Positions 10,020 through 50,478 of a stretch of 64,000 nt of DNA are shown one piece after another (position 1 is the stretch's first letter; each line of letters starts with the position of its first letter). This DNA is from an uncultured Flavobacteriaceae bacterium (lineage in GTDB: Bacteria; Bacteroidota; Bacteroidia; Flavobacteriales; Flavobacteriaceae): the NCBI GenBank assembly GCA_947502495.1, contig CANNAC010000002.1:62001-126000 (forward strand), written 5' to 3'. The translations under genes were made by a program, and so were the position numbers. The notes under the pieces are model-generated. The model searched no databases, had not been told where the DNA came from, and was given only the letters and a program-made list of their open reading frames with translations.

Positions 10020-10565
10020 TTGCAAATTCCGCCATTGTTGGTGTTCTCCACCAACAAAAAACTTAATAAGCAGAAAAAGAAGTTGGTGAAAAACACCAAC
10101 TTTGGCCTTGTTGATTACTACAAATTTAAAACATCCACATTCAGACCTGAAAGGTTTGCGCCTTTGTTGGTGTTGCGCCTTTGTTGGTGTTCTCCACCAA
10201 CAAAAATTTAATAAGCAGAAAAAAGAAGTTGGTGAAAAACACCAACTTTGGCCTTGTTGGATGCTACAAATTTAAAACAACAATATTCAGACCTGAAAGG
10301 TTTGCGCCTTTGTTGGTGTTGCGCCTTTGTTGGTGTTTTTCACCAACAAACAACAAAAAAACCACAAAAGCAGTTGGTGAAAAACTTCAACTTCGGCATC
10401 GCTAAATACGATAAATCAAAAACATCCATATTCAGTCCTTGCGCCTTTTGTTGGTGTTTTCCTCCAACAAAAAACAAAAAAAAAAAAAGCAGTTGGTGGA
10501 AAACGTCAACTTCGGTATCGCTAAATACGATAAATTAAAAACATCGATATTCAGAGCTGACAGGT
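10020..10565. repeat. Tandem array of 146-bp units, each with two GTTGGTG/CACCAAC hairpins
   Basis: Four units are visible. Hairpin A (TTGTTGGTGTTCTCCACCAA core) starts at 10035, 10181, 10327 and, degenerate, 10448, giving periods of 146, 146 and 121 bp. Hairpin B (AAGTTGGTG-AAAAA-CACCAACTT) is at 10080-10102 and 10226-10248, with weaker copies later. Units also share AATAAGCAGAAAA, ACAAATTTAAAACA, TTCAGACCTGAAAGGTTTGCGCC and an extra TTGGTGTTGCGCC. The first three units are closest and the fourth has decayed. The array fills the whole gap between two convergent genes and ends at the stop codon of the minus-strand NTPase gene. Short open frames inside it are repeat artefacts. Confidence 0.9.
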
Positions 10566-20208: not shown

Positions 20209-20812
20209 AAACCTTATAATCGTCTTTACAAGAAATCCAGAACTTGGTAAAGTAAAAACACGTTTAGCAAAAACGATTGGTGATGCTTCTGCATTAAACA
20301 TTTACAGCTTCCTACTAGAACATACCGAAAAAACAATTAGAAACATAGATAGCGACAAAGCCGTTTATTACTCGGTAGCAATCCATAATCAAGATATTTG
20401 GGATAATGCCATCTACCAAAAACACTTACAAGAAGGAGAAGATTTAGGAATACGAATGCTGCATGCATTTCAAAACGGCTTCGCCAAAGGCTATGAAAAA
20501 GTGATTATTGTTGGTAGTGATCTATTCGATTTAAAAGAAAAACACATGGAAGAAGCTTTTCAAAAATTAGAAAAACGCGATGTTGTTATTGGTCCTGCCG
20601 AAGATGGAGGTTATTATTTATTAGGGATGAAAACGCTTCACGAAGAAGTTTTCAAAAACAAAATCTGGGGAACTTCATCCGTTTTTAAAGACACCACAAA
20701 AGATTTACACAAATTTAAAATCCATCAACTAGAAAAGTTAAATGATATTGATACTTTTGAAGATATGGAAAACAATTCCACATTAAAAAAATTAATACTT
20801 ACAGATGATTAA
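20201..20812 (+). CDS. TIGR04282-type arsenosugar biosynthesis glycosyltransferase
   Basis: 203 residues, DUF2064/nucleotidyltransferase-like GT-A fold. Signature regions are VFTRNPELGKVKTRLAK, IIVGSDLFDLKEKHM and VIGPAEDGGYYLLGMK. The TIGR04282 family is found almost always with ArsM/ArsS and is thought to add the aglycone or sugar moiety to the arsenoribose. The gene overlaps its neighbours by 8 bp at both ends, so it is firmly in the operon. Confidence 0.88.
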   Translation: MNKNLIIVFTRNPELGKVKTRLAKTIGDASALNIYSFLLEHTEKTIRNIDSDKAVYYSVAIHNQDIWDNAIYQKHLQEGEDLGIRMLHAFQNGFAKGYEKVIIVGSDLFDLKEKHMEEAFQKLEKRDVVIGPAEDGGYYLLGMKTLHEEVFKNKIWGTSSVFKDTTKDLHKFKIHQLEKLNDIDTFEDMENNSTLKKLILTDD

Positions 20813-21617
20813 ATATATAAACGAAACTGTAGAATACCTACAGGAGAAAGGCTTTGACAAACCAGAAATAGGAATTATTCTTGGTACCGGCCTCGGACAA
20901 CTTATTGATGAAATAGAAATTATTGCAGAAGCAAGCTATAATCACATTCCGAACTTTCCAACAGCAACCGTAGAGTTTCACAAAGGAAAACTTATTTACG
21001 GCGAATTAGCAGGAAAAAAAGTAGTGGTTATGCAAGGACGCTTCCATGTTTATGAAGGCTATTCTTTACAAGACGTAACCTATCCAGTTCGTGTTATGGA
21101 AAAACTAGGAATTACAACTTTATTAGTTTCTAATGCATCTGGCGCAATAAACACCAACTATAAAAAAGGCGAATTGATGTTAATTGAAGACCACATCAAT
21201 CTTCAAGGAAGCTCTCCTCTAGCATTTAAAGGAGTTGCCGAATTAGGAGAACGTTTTGTTGACATGAGTGCTCCTTATGACGCTAAAATAAATGAATCCT
21301 TTAAAGCTATTGCCAAAGCAAATAATATTAAACTGCACGAAGGTGTTTACACAAGTGTCGTTGGACCGCAATTAGAAACAAGAGCAGAATACAGGATGCT
21401 TAAAATTATGGGTACCGATGCCGTTGGAATGAGTACCGTTCCCGAAATTATTGTTGCCAATCATTTAAAATTAAAAACAGCAGCAGTGTCAGTTTTAACC
21501 GATGAATGCGACCCAAGTAATCTAAAACCTGTAAACATTAATGAAATTATTGCCATGGCTGCAAAAGCAGAACCAGACATGATTACATTGTTTAAGGAAT
21601 TGATTAAGAGTTTATAG
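20805..21617 (+). CDS. Purine nucleoside phosphorylase (trimeric PNP family)
   Basis: 270 residues. Motifs are IGIILGTGLGQL (phosphate binding), FHVYEGYSLQDV, LVSNASGAIN, VGPQLETRAEYRM and DAVGMSTVPE, followed by SVLTDEC with the base-recognition region. The family cleaves purine nucleosides with phosphate. In this operon (8-bp overlap with the TIGR04282 gene and next to arsM) a likely substrate is dimethylarsinoyl-adenosine, releasing adenine and an arsenoribose phosphate. That is inferred from context; ordinary purine salvage is the alternative. Confidence 0.9.
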   Translation: MIKYINETVEYLQEKGFDKPEIGIILGTGLGQLIDEIEIIAEASYNHIPNFPTATVEFHKGKLIYGELAGKKVVVMQGRFHVYEGYSLQDVTYPVRVMEKLGITTLLVSNASGAINTNYKKGELMLIEDHINLQGSSPLAFKGVAELGERFVDMSAPYDAKINESFKAIAKANNIKLHEGVYTSVVGPQLETRAEYRMLKIMGTDAVGMSTVPEIIVANHLKLKTAAVSVLTDECDPSNLKPVNINEIIAMAAKAEPDMITLFKELIKSL

Positions 21618-21626
21618 TAACCTTTG

Positions 21627-21744
21627 GGCGTTACTCTACTTCGCGAAAAGCTACGTAGAATCAGGCTTTTCACTATACCTGCCTGCCGGCAGGCAGGTCT
21701 TTTTCTCGTACCTCAAAAAAGGATGCCGTTGCAATCCTTAACGC
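21627..21744. repeat. GCGTTA..TAACGC element, copy 2, carrying a nested 20-bp palindrome
   Basis: A 118-bp element (GGCGTTACTCTACTTCGC to TGCAATCCTTAACGC) between the PNP and arsM genes. It is very close to the reverse-oriented copy at 50383-50478, apart from 20 extra bases at 21678-21697. The left end folds as CTACTTCGC/GCTACGTAG. Confidence 0.9.
21678..21697. repeat. 20-bp palindrome CCTGCCTGCCGGCAGGCAGG inserted in a larger repeat
   Basis: A perfect 20-bp palindrome, very GC-rich against its AT-rich surroundings. In the related repeat at 50383-50478 the flanks (CACTATA and TCTTTTTCTCG) are joined directly, giving a precise empty site. Confidence 0.9.
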
Positions 21745-21810
21745 GGAAAAAAACAGCAATAAAACAAGGGTTTTCAATTCCTTAAGAAAAGTAAAATAAT
21801 AAATAAAAAG

Positions 21811-21830
21811 ATACCAGCCTTCGCAGGCAT
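21811..21830 (+). repeat. Degenerate hairpin repeat in front of the arsM start codon
   Basis: ATACCAGCCTTCGCAGGCAT is an imperfect version of the ATTCCnGCCTTCGCnGGAAT repeat. It ends 6 nt before the arsM ATG at 21837 and is preceded by the same AATAATAAAnAAAAAGAT context as the copy before arsS. Confidence 0.65.
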
Positions 21831-21836
21831 AAAAAA

Positions 21837-22805
21837 ATGAGTTACCTAGAAACCACACACGACGTATACAAAGAAGCAGCATTAACTCCAGATGTTGGAC
21901 TTTGCTGTACTACGAATCCAATTTGGGAATTACCAGGATTAAAAATCCCGAAAATCATGCAAGAAATGAATTATGGTTGTGGTTCTACGGTGCACGCTCG
22001 TGATTTAACCAACAATCCAAAAATGCTTTATGTTGGTGTTGGTGGCGGAATGGAACTTTTACAATTCGCATATTTTAATCGCCAAAAAGGTGGTGTGGTA
22101 GGTATTGATGTGGTAGACGAAATGCTAGAAGCTTCTCGTAAAAACTTTATCGAAGCCGAAGCACAAAACCCATGGTTTAAATCGGAATTTGTAGACCTTG
22201 TAAAAGGAGATGCATTAAACCTTAATGTAGCAGATAATTCTATTGATGTTGCTGCGCAAAACTGTTTGTTTAATATTTTTAAAGCAGAAGATTTAAAGAA
22301 AGCCATAGAAGAAATGTATCGTGTTTTAAAACCACACGGAAAACTGGTGATGAGCGATCCTACTTGCGAGCAACCAATGAATGATGCATTACGTAACGAC
22401 GACAGATTAAGAGCACTTTGTTTAAGCGGAAGCTTACCAATTGCAGAGTATGTAAAAGCGCTAACCGATGCTGGTTTTGGAACTATTGAAATTAGAGCTA
22501 GAAAACCATACCGAATTCTAGACCCTAAAACCTACCCAACAGAAGAATTAATCTATATAGAATCTATTGAAGTTGCTGCTATTAAAGATCCAATGCCAAA
22601 AGACGGACCTTGTATTTTTACTGGAAAAGCTGCTATTTACTATGGTGATCAAGATTATTTTGATGATAAAGAAGGACATATATTATTAAAAAATCAACCA
22701 TTGGCAATTTGCGATAAAACAGCAAAAGCATTACAAGCATTAAACAGAGACGATATTTACTTTTCAGAATCTACTTTCCATTATGATGGTGGAGGTTGTT
22801 GTTAG
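21837..22805 (+). CDS. arsM: Arsenite methyltransferase ArsM, arsenosugar type
   Basis: 322 residues. Arsenic-binding cysteines are visible as C23-C24, C48 (MNYGCGSTVHARDL) and the C-terminal pair C321-C322 (GGGCC). The SAM-binding core is LYVGVGGGMELL, IDVVDEMLEASRKN and GDALNLNVADNSIDVAAQNC. It methylates As(III) with SAM, providing the mono- or dimethylated arsenical used by ArsS. It is separated from the PNP gene by a repeat-filled gap of 219 bp. The opening SYLETTHDVYKEAA is typical of the ArsM version linked to arsenosugar clusters. Confidence 0.93.
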   Translation: MSYLETTHDVYKEAALTPDVGLCCTTNPIWELPGLKIPKIMQEMNYGCGSTVHARDLTNNPKMLYVGVGGGMELLQFAYFNRQKGGVVGIDVVDEMLEASRKNFIEAEAQNPWFKSEFVDLVKGDALNLNVADNSIDVAAQNCLFNIFKAEDLKKAIEEMYRVLKPHGKLVMSDPTCEQPMNDALRNDDRLRALCLSGSLPIAEYVKALTDAGFGTIEIRARKPYRILDPKTYPTEELIYIESIEVAAIKDPMPKDGPCIFTGKAAIYYGDQDYFDDKEGHILLKNQPLAICDKTAKALQALNRDDIYFSESTFHYDGGGCC

Positions 22806-33725: not shown

Positions 33726-34634
33726 ATGAAAAAAATACTATTTATATTAATATTGCTGGTAAGTTGTAACGCTTTCGCGGAAAAAACCTACTCCAAAAAA
33801 TATTATAACAATGGTACATTAAAAGCGGAAGGTTGGTTAGAAAACAACCTTAAAATCGAATATTGGAAATTCTATCATCCAAACGGAAACATAGAAAAAG
33901 GAGGTGTATTTAATGCAAATCTAGAAGATGGCTTTTGGAAATTTTATTTCGAAAATAAAAATCTAGAAGCCGAAGGTCATTTTTTAAAAGGAAAACGATC
34001 TGGATTCTGGATGTACTTCTTTAAAGACAAAACGCGAAACAAGTTTGGTAATTATGAAAATGGCTTAGAAACTGGTTGCTGGGAAACCTACCACACCAAT
34101 GGAAACCTAATGCAGAAAGGGAATTACAGCAAAGGCCTTTTTAATAATTATTGGAAATTCTATCATTTTAATGGTATACTAAAAAAAGAAGGTAACTTTG
34201 CACACGGAAAACCAACAGCATTCTGGAAAAACTATTACCAAAATGGCACCCTAAAATCGGAAGGTCTTTTTAAAAACGGAGTAGAAGATGGTTTTTGGAT
34301 TTATTATTTCAATAATGGAAAACAAAAGAAAACAGGGTCTTTCCTAGACGGCATAGAAACCAATTATTGGACCTTTTTCAAAACCAATGGCACTAAAGAA
34401 AAAGAAGGTCATTTTGTAAACGGATACAAAACAGATTGGTGGTTGTTTTATGACAACATGGAAAAAGTGAATCATAGATGTCAATTAAAAAACAATCAAA
34501 AAAACGGCTATTGTTTGATGTATAAAAACGAGAAGCTAGTTGCTGCCAGTAAATTTTCAGAAGGAAAAAAAATAAAAACGTGGACCGATTTGGCCACTTT
34601 CAAAAGAGAAAATAAATTAAGTGATCTTAAGTAA
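33726..34634 (+). CDS. YwqK/MORN-like repeat protein, exported
   Basis: 302 residues with a signal peptide (FILILLVSCNAFA); the Cys at about 14 could be a lipobox. The rest is about ten repeats of roughly 23 residues with the pattern YYxNGxLKxEGxFxxGxxxGxWxxY, as in YNNGTLKAEGWLENN and YFNNGKQKKTGSFLDG. YwqK/MORN repeats are often annotated as antitoxin-like but usually act as surface or membrane-associated repeats. It ends directly at the ATG of the next gene (no spacing). Confidence 0.85.
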   Translation: MKKILFILILLVSCNAFAEKTYSKKYYNNGTLKAEGWLENNLKIEYWKFYHPNGNIEKGGVFNANLEDGFWKFYFENKNLEAEGHFLKGKRSGFWMYFFKDKTRNKFGNYENGLETGCWETYHTNGNLMQKGNYSKGLFNNYWKFYHFNGILKKEGNFAHGKPTAFWKNYYQNGTLKSEGLFKNGVEDGFWIYYFNNGKQKKTGSFLDGIETNYWTFFKTNGTKEKEGHFVNGYKTDWWLFYDNMEKVNHRCQLKNNQKNGYCLMYKNEKLVAASKFSEGKKIKTWTDLATFKRENKLSDLK

Positions 34635-50382: not shown

Positions 50383-50478
50383 GCGTTAGCGATTGCAACG
50401 GCATCCTTTTTTGAGATACGAGAAAAAGATATAGTGAAAAGCGCGTTGCTACGCAGTTTACGCGTAGTAGCAAACGCC
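50383..50478. repeat. GCGTTA..TAACGC element, copy 4 (reverse orientation, empty site)
   Basis: 96 bp, GCGTTAGCGATTGCAACGGC at the left and GCAAACGCC at the right. It is the reverse complement of the type at 21627-21744, with almost identical interior. It lacks the 20-bp palindrome and shows the uninterrupted junction ACTATA-TCTTTTTCTC when read on the minus strand. It lies between the pseudouridine synthase and UbiA genes. Confidence 0.9.

Follow-up and report, generated by a model that had tools for sequence, protein, structure and literature searches.

Cyanobacterial SDRs, which Elhai and colleagues wrote about in 2008, are reportedly twenty-odd nucleotides long, form hairpins, show precise presence and absence, and are nested in other repeats. 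No enzyme is known for them. They have other sequences than the 20-mer studied here and are known from cyanobacteria. The ultra-short palindromes of mitochondria are lineage-specific. The way in which such units of about 20 bp move has been a standing question ever since the organelle palindromes and the SDRs were first reported. The SDRs of cyanobacteria are cited in PMC3116915, and the mitochondrial kinds named in PMC7218506 are the GC-rich palindromes of Neurospora, the ultra-short elements of Podospora and the double hairpins of Allomyces. The GTAG- or CGTC-tagged palindromes of REP/RAYT systems are 20–40 bp long according to PMC3733652 and PMC6006769, where the CGTC kind is said to lack a dedicated transposase.

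We describe here a 20-bp perfect palindrome, CCTGCCTGCCGGCAGGCAGG, that is probably a non-autonomous ultra-short mobile unit, inserted whole into an existing intergenic repeat in this lineage of Flavobacteriaceae. By analogy, the 20-mer appears to work like the organelle ultra-short mobile palindromes and the SDRs; its spread across phyla is what would be unusual. It is short like the mitochondrial palindromes, which are reported to be optional or mobile in PMC7218506, but it is bacterial and cross-phylum. It has the 20–40 bp size of REP/RAYT-type palindromes and, like the CGTC kind, no dedicated transposase was found for it in the genomes studied here.

The locus in the window

The window is the whole stretch of 64,000 nucleotides that we analysed, and its positions are used for the features below, where | marks a junction:

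21678..21697, no strand assigned: 20-bp perfect palindrome CCTGCCTGCCGGCAGGCAGG, the proposed mobile unit (empty orthologues; single-strand fold)
21627..21744, plus strand: copy of a larger interspersed intergenic repeat that hosts the palindrome, GGCGTTAC...CTATA|TCTTTT...GGATGCCGTTGCAATCCTTAACGC
50383..50478, minus strand: second window copy of the larger repeat, without the palindrome, a paralogous empty site
20805..21617, plus strand: upstream gene, phosphorylase superfamily (PNP_UDP_1), context only
21837..22805, plus strand: downstream gene, methyltransferase domain, context only

At up to three mismatches, 21678-21697 is the only match to CCTGCCTGCCGGCAGGCAGG in the window, and 100 shuffles gave 0. 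Folding predicts that the palindrome as single-stranded DNA forms an 8-bp stem with a 4-nt loop. The repeat copy that bears it is intergenic, with the phosphorylase-superfamily gene on one side and the methyltransferase gene on the other, and there was no Rfam match in 21500-21900. The minus-strand copy at 50383-50478 reads CACTATA|TCTTTTTCTCG at the junction, with nothing inserted. The earlier note had called the two copies nearly identical. This holds for the junction and for the right arm (47 nt, 94% alike), but not for the far left arm (33 nt, 79%).

The window has other repeats as well. At 10034-10554 there are four units, each with a GTTGGTG...CACCAAC hairpin, at a spacing of 119-146 nt, and 44-45 nt repeats at multiples of 72 nt lie at 33816-34435; the latter resemble coding repeats of the MORN type.

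The host repeat across the genome

The window's own genome (G000) has seven exact copies of the palindrome, two with one mismatch, two with two mismatches and none with three. Our control was the complement (reversed-pattern) palindrome, which is itself palindromic and has the same make-up. It was found in neither the own genome nor any of the 7 genomes of the genus, the 299 of the family or the 50 palindrome-bearing genomes described below.

All nine exact and one-mismatch copies are inside one larger repeat family, at four positions in the repeat as judged by eye: CTATA|TCTTT or a variant (four copies), GGGCG|TTACC (two), GGTCGCG|CTTT or a variant (two) and CAATC|CTTCACGC (one). A single repeat copy, L004, has two palindromes. 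Because the repeat places make up only about 5 kb of the 4.07 Mb genome, finding nine of nine there is far beyond chance, as an estimate rather than a computed test. This nesting in other repeats is SDR-like, while the two two-mismatch copies sit in short hairpins outside the larger repeat.

We found at least 38 places in the own genome that are similar to the repeat or the palindrome, which is a lower bound since 40 of 67 candidates were scored and then grouped. The nine palindromes with no or one mismatch are in eight of these places, and in the remaining 30 the palindrome is absent at up to three mismatches. The earlier note had reasoned that the empty window copy would be a simple deletion if every other copy of the repeat carried the palindrome; at least 30 places in the genome are without it.

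Orthologous sites in the genus

We searched for the window locus in all 7 genomes of the genus. In G001 and G004 the site is empty, with an exact 20-nt gap, flank mismatches of 4/70 (G001) and 2/70 (G004), no other indel and no target duplication at the junction. The matches at this locus in the other four congeners do not span the site. The clean 20-bp presence or absence seen between the two window copies is thus confirmed at an orthologous site.

Each of the nine sites with no or one mismatch has an empty orthologue in at least one congener, and for this reason we regard the palindrome as a separable unit. Ungapped matches with at most 14/70 mismatches gave eight of these, and alignment gave L005. 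The sites outside the window are as follows:

L002: empty in G001, G005, G006 and G004 (the right flank in G004 diverges further out); filled in G003
L003: empty in G001, where an A run some 17 nt off differs by one indel
L004, both sites: empty in G004; the first site has one-base differences in T and G runs within 10 nt
L005: empty in G005, by alignment; a nearby run is one A shorter
L006: empty in G001 and G005; filled in G004
L007: empty in G001; filled in G004 and G003, where the palindrome carries substitutions; G000 and G004 have one of these in common
L008: empty in G001 and G003

The clean presence and absence at nine of nine sites is SDR-like, with small indel or homopolymer differences near L003, the first site of L004, and L005. 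A second palindrome in G003 is missing in G000, G001 and G006. Over matches of at least 300 bp at these loci, G001, G003 and G004 are 90-92% identical to G000, and G002, G005 and G006 are 79-83% identical to it.

We infer mobility from this presence and absence at orthologous sites. The direction of change can be read best where there are outgroups: G005 is empty at L002, L005 and L006 and G006 is empty at L002, which favours gain as the better reading at those three loci. At the other sites polarity rests on parsimony. For the window locus, the local tree places G004 outside G000, G001 and G003, which makes a single gain in G000 more parsimonious than a loss in each of two lineages. At L002 the palindrome is present in G000 and G003 and missing from G001 and G004. 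No single gain fits this pattern on the local tree, and one has to allow for insertion more than once at the spot, for a precise loss or for recombination. L007 is filled in G000, G003 and G004 and empty in G001, and may also be a loss, on a local tree that is poorly supported. The view that a clean 20-bp gain or loss implies a specific mechanism, either insertion or precise deletion, is supported, and between the two options the outgroups and the local tree favour insertion.

Where the unit is found

We collected a set of 218 junctions, distinct by their 16-nt core and with related sites kept in. The dinucleotide A|T occurs at 49 of the 218, where 11.4 are expected. T on the left is found 18 times (57 expected) and A on the right 19 times (59 expected). 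At the first outer base, A has a frequency of 0.08 in each of three sets, namely the first 142 sites, 37 viral-contig sites and the sites of seven further genomes, and of 0.03-0.12 when split by group (a group of two left out). Avoidance of T to the left and of A to the right of the unit recurs across the data sets, and we take the avoidance of A at +1 to be general. We rejected T at outer position +3 as a general rule, since its frequency was 0.45 in the first 142 sites, yet 0.24 in the viral contigs and 0.30 in the seven further genomes. REP/RAYT palindromes carry a GTAG or CGTC tag, whereas this perfect palindrome has none, and its outer bases over the 218 junctions show a weak preference and no fixed tag.

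A target duplication, which the earlier note had proposed looking for, did not turn up: there is none at the window junction, and duplications of 3 nt were counted 3 times (1.6 expected) and those of 2 nt 18 times (11.6 expected). The missing target site duplication sets the palindrome apart from a MITE of a DDE transposon.

Genes are mostly avoided. None of 18 sites in genus loci (some counted twice) was inside an ORF of at least 150 aa, against a coverage of 0.69, and 30 of 96 contig sites were, against a coverage of 0.81. Intergenic DNA and repeats tolerate the unit, and genes mostly do not. At L200 (2001-2249), the palindrome is stop-free in every frame and the listed ORFs include PAGRQ-type peptides; a search of the open-access literature for the peptide that the 20-mer encodes found one unrelated paper only.

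Host repeats differ between genomes. In G253, all seven fetched sites (of 9 copies) are in another repeat, GTCATTCAG...GAATCT, and in G211 the seven fetched sites (of 14) are in short hairpins, both as judged by eye and from pairwise matches. The seven sites fetched from G126 share no host repeat, one pair excepted.

Hairpins. We rejected hairpin loops as a general target, with 41 of 139 sites in loops compared to 271 of 1104 points drawn at random (p=0.21); with near points as the reference, p was 0.35. A stem-based score gave an AUC of 0.53 over 214 sites (p=0.048), and by set it was 0.31 for the genus, 0.62 for the seven further genomes, 0.55 for contigs and 0.51 for viral contigs. A general hairpin preference is weak or absent.

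tRNA genes. Insertion into working tRNA genes was also rejected, as ARAGORN recognised a complete tRNA at one site out of 183. That one, L266 on a viral contig, has the palindrome at 2284, apparently within the variable region of a tRNA-Met gene that is otherwise intact. By eye, copies at L290, L325, L067, L098 and L156 are in tRNA-like fragments, often on the 3' side of the D loop; ARAGORN called none of the fragments at L067, L098 and L156 a tRNA in a scan that was run without L290 and L325.

Pairs. At L290, L291, L293, L295, L314 and L324, from several genomes, two palindromes are 104-340 bp apart and the flanks are duplicated. The unit may promote duplication.

Taxonomic distribution

The exact 20-mer is in 4 of the 7 genomes of the genus and in 57 of 299 genomes of the family, where the control is in none. 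A scan of species genomes for the exact 20-mer gave at least 116 stretches. Among the matches listed, 80 of them with titles, are Patescibacteria lineages, Omnitrophota, Nitrospirae, Elusimicrobia, Planctomycetes, Verrucomicrobia, Chloroflexi and Bacteroidetes. By title, the isolates among the matches listed are Bacteroidota only (e.g. Winogradskyella, Longitalea and Salegentibacter), and nearly all of the listed matches outside Bacteroidota are metagenome bins, one of which is marked complete and curated (WWE3, L067). The identical 20-mer is found in genomes of many phyla, outside Bacteroidota mostly in metagenome bins. SDRs differ in this respect.

Fifty genomes, chosen for holding the 20-mer and reached from the species-genome scan, have 453 copies in approximately 113 Mb (sizes rounded), with 0 for the control. 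The densest are an Uhrbacteria bin with 39 copies in 1.0 Mb and a Bacteroidetes bin with 43 in 4.0 Mb, and so many copies in one bin disfavour stray contamination. IMG/VR has 33 stretches with the 20-mer. With a 30-base query around the site, no 20/20 match was found in plasmids, phages or E. coli (one of the searches covered the best 40 of 46 records). No vehicle is shown by these searches, which counts against the mobile-unit explanation.

The 20-mer and its 14-base core are in no paper of the open-access literature searched, a scope outside which most subscription papers and preprints lie. We also found no description of one identical 20-mer acting as a mobile unit across phyla among the best-ranked titles of the open-access literature.

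A second perfect palindrome, TCCCGATAGCTATCGGGA, was in 9 of 49 genomes tested, with up to 17 copies each and 0 for the control. Its carriers are G211, G126, G307, G315, G322, G326, G331, G333 and G348 (loci L277-L287); by record title seven are Bacteroidota, and two are from the same family as the window. This palindrome may be a cousin of the 20-mer that is restricted to one phylum.

Alternative explanations

We considered whether the relatives could have lost the palindrome by precise removal of a hairpin from ancestral filled copies. Palindromes are prone to deletion, which counts for such a loss, and the patterns at L002 and L007 permit it. We still judge it very unlikely, because the outgroups are empty (G005 at L002, L005 and L006, G006 at L002), 30 of the at least 38 repeat places in the own genome are without the palindrome, and the window site has no flanking direct repeats to guide an exact deletion. 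The reuse of the same repeat positions in the own genome (by four, two, two and one copies) would also fit ectopic gene conversion among copies of the larger repeat, with the palindrome inserted once per position. However, the flanks of the window site agree with those of its empty orthologues (2 and 4 mismatches in 70), and by eye they depart from those of the other filled copies no further than about 7 nt out from the junction, so that a converted tract would be only about 14 nt plus the unit. Conversion is highly improbable in our view, as it also leaves the four positions, the other host repeats and the other phyla unexplained. GC-rich palindromes can terminate transcription, and this counts for a terminator reading. 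Even so, chance, selection for a terminator or protein site, or an assembly artefact is barely credible as an explanation: the control palindrome was found 0 times in every genome searched with it, and point selection does not make exact 20-nt optional blocks in conserved flanks. At L007, the palindrome has one and the same substitution in G000 and G004, so there it is inherited and not an artefact.

A REP-like element moved by the genome's RAYT / Y1 (HUH) single-strand transposase is easier to imagine, given the small size, the hairpin form, the lack of a target duplication and the mostly intergenic sites. Y1_Tnp is present in the own genome and in 38 of the 50 palindrome-bearing genomes, and in G236 a Y1 match has two copies of the palindrome in its vicinity, at distances of 0.4 and 1.1 kb. 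Within the genus, Y1 is in three of four palindrome-bearing species (G000, G001 and G004, with G003 the exception) and in none of three palindrome-free ones. The association does not hold up more widely, however, and the link to a REP-associated transposase that had been suggested as a check was not supported. Y1 is not enriched, being in 12 of 20 family genomes with at least two copies (a chosen set, with six further two-copy genomes left out of the Y1 search) and in 18 of 38 without (Fisher p=0.42), and over the 50 genomes there is no correlation (rho 0.16, p=0.28). Y1 matches are lacking in G195 and G003, two single-contig genomes with 11 and 5 copies of the palindrome. The palindrome is rare near 62 Y1 loci taken with about 1.5 kb of flank: exact palindromes are at L200 (two) and L349 (one, 1.4 kb off), and a one-mismatch copy is at L346 only, 1 kb off. 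By eye, the Y1 genes of the own genome and G236 are flanked by another REP. Given the absence of Y1 in these two multi-copy genomes, the lack of correlation and the rarity near Y1, RAYT is not required within these data, and we find this explanation unlikely. Apart from L200, L349 and L346, these tests show no tie to RAYT, and this and the few copies per genome are further differences from REP/RAYT systems.

Of the two Y1 matches in the own genome, one exceeds the cut-off, and the REP that flanks this gene is a different one. At L171 (G000:C9:21318-21554), a Y1/RAYT-like gene is amid many copies of another REP of the CACGGATTGCAAATCCGCGC type, as seen by eye. For a mobilising gene of any other kind, we inspected the ORFs of 116 contig stretches and of two Y1 loci, and no family recurs near the sites.

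Proposed mechanism and implications

Under the reading that we prefer, a mobile unit inserted whole, the palindrome would insert without target duplication or deletion and with a preference for the dinucleotide A|T. It may move as a folded single strand or as a small duplex, which a trans-acting factor would join into broken or single-stranded DNA. Such a factor would have to be widespread, or itself be transferred between phyla. We put forward more tentatively, as a possibility we hold to be less likely than not, that one 20-bp palindrome circulates between phyla, free-standing and mobilised in trans, and that an undescribed enzyme or host process joins the hairpin at A|T without duplication.

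There is an exact sequence to work with, filled and empty pairs in close relatives, a target preference that can be measured and hosts from many phyla, which makes a screen by gene presence and absence and an insertion assay feasible. The case is also a warning that shared regulation does not have to follow when distant genomes contain identical short palindromes. If the circulation across phyla is true, the 20-mer would be among the smallest mobile sequences known.
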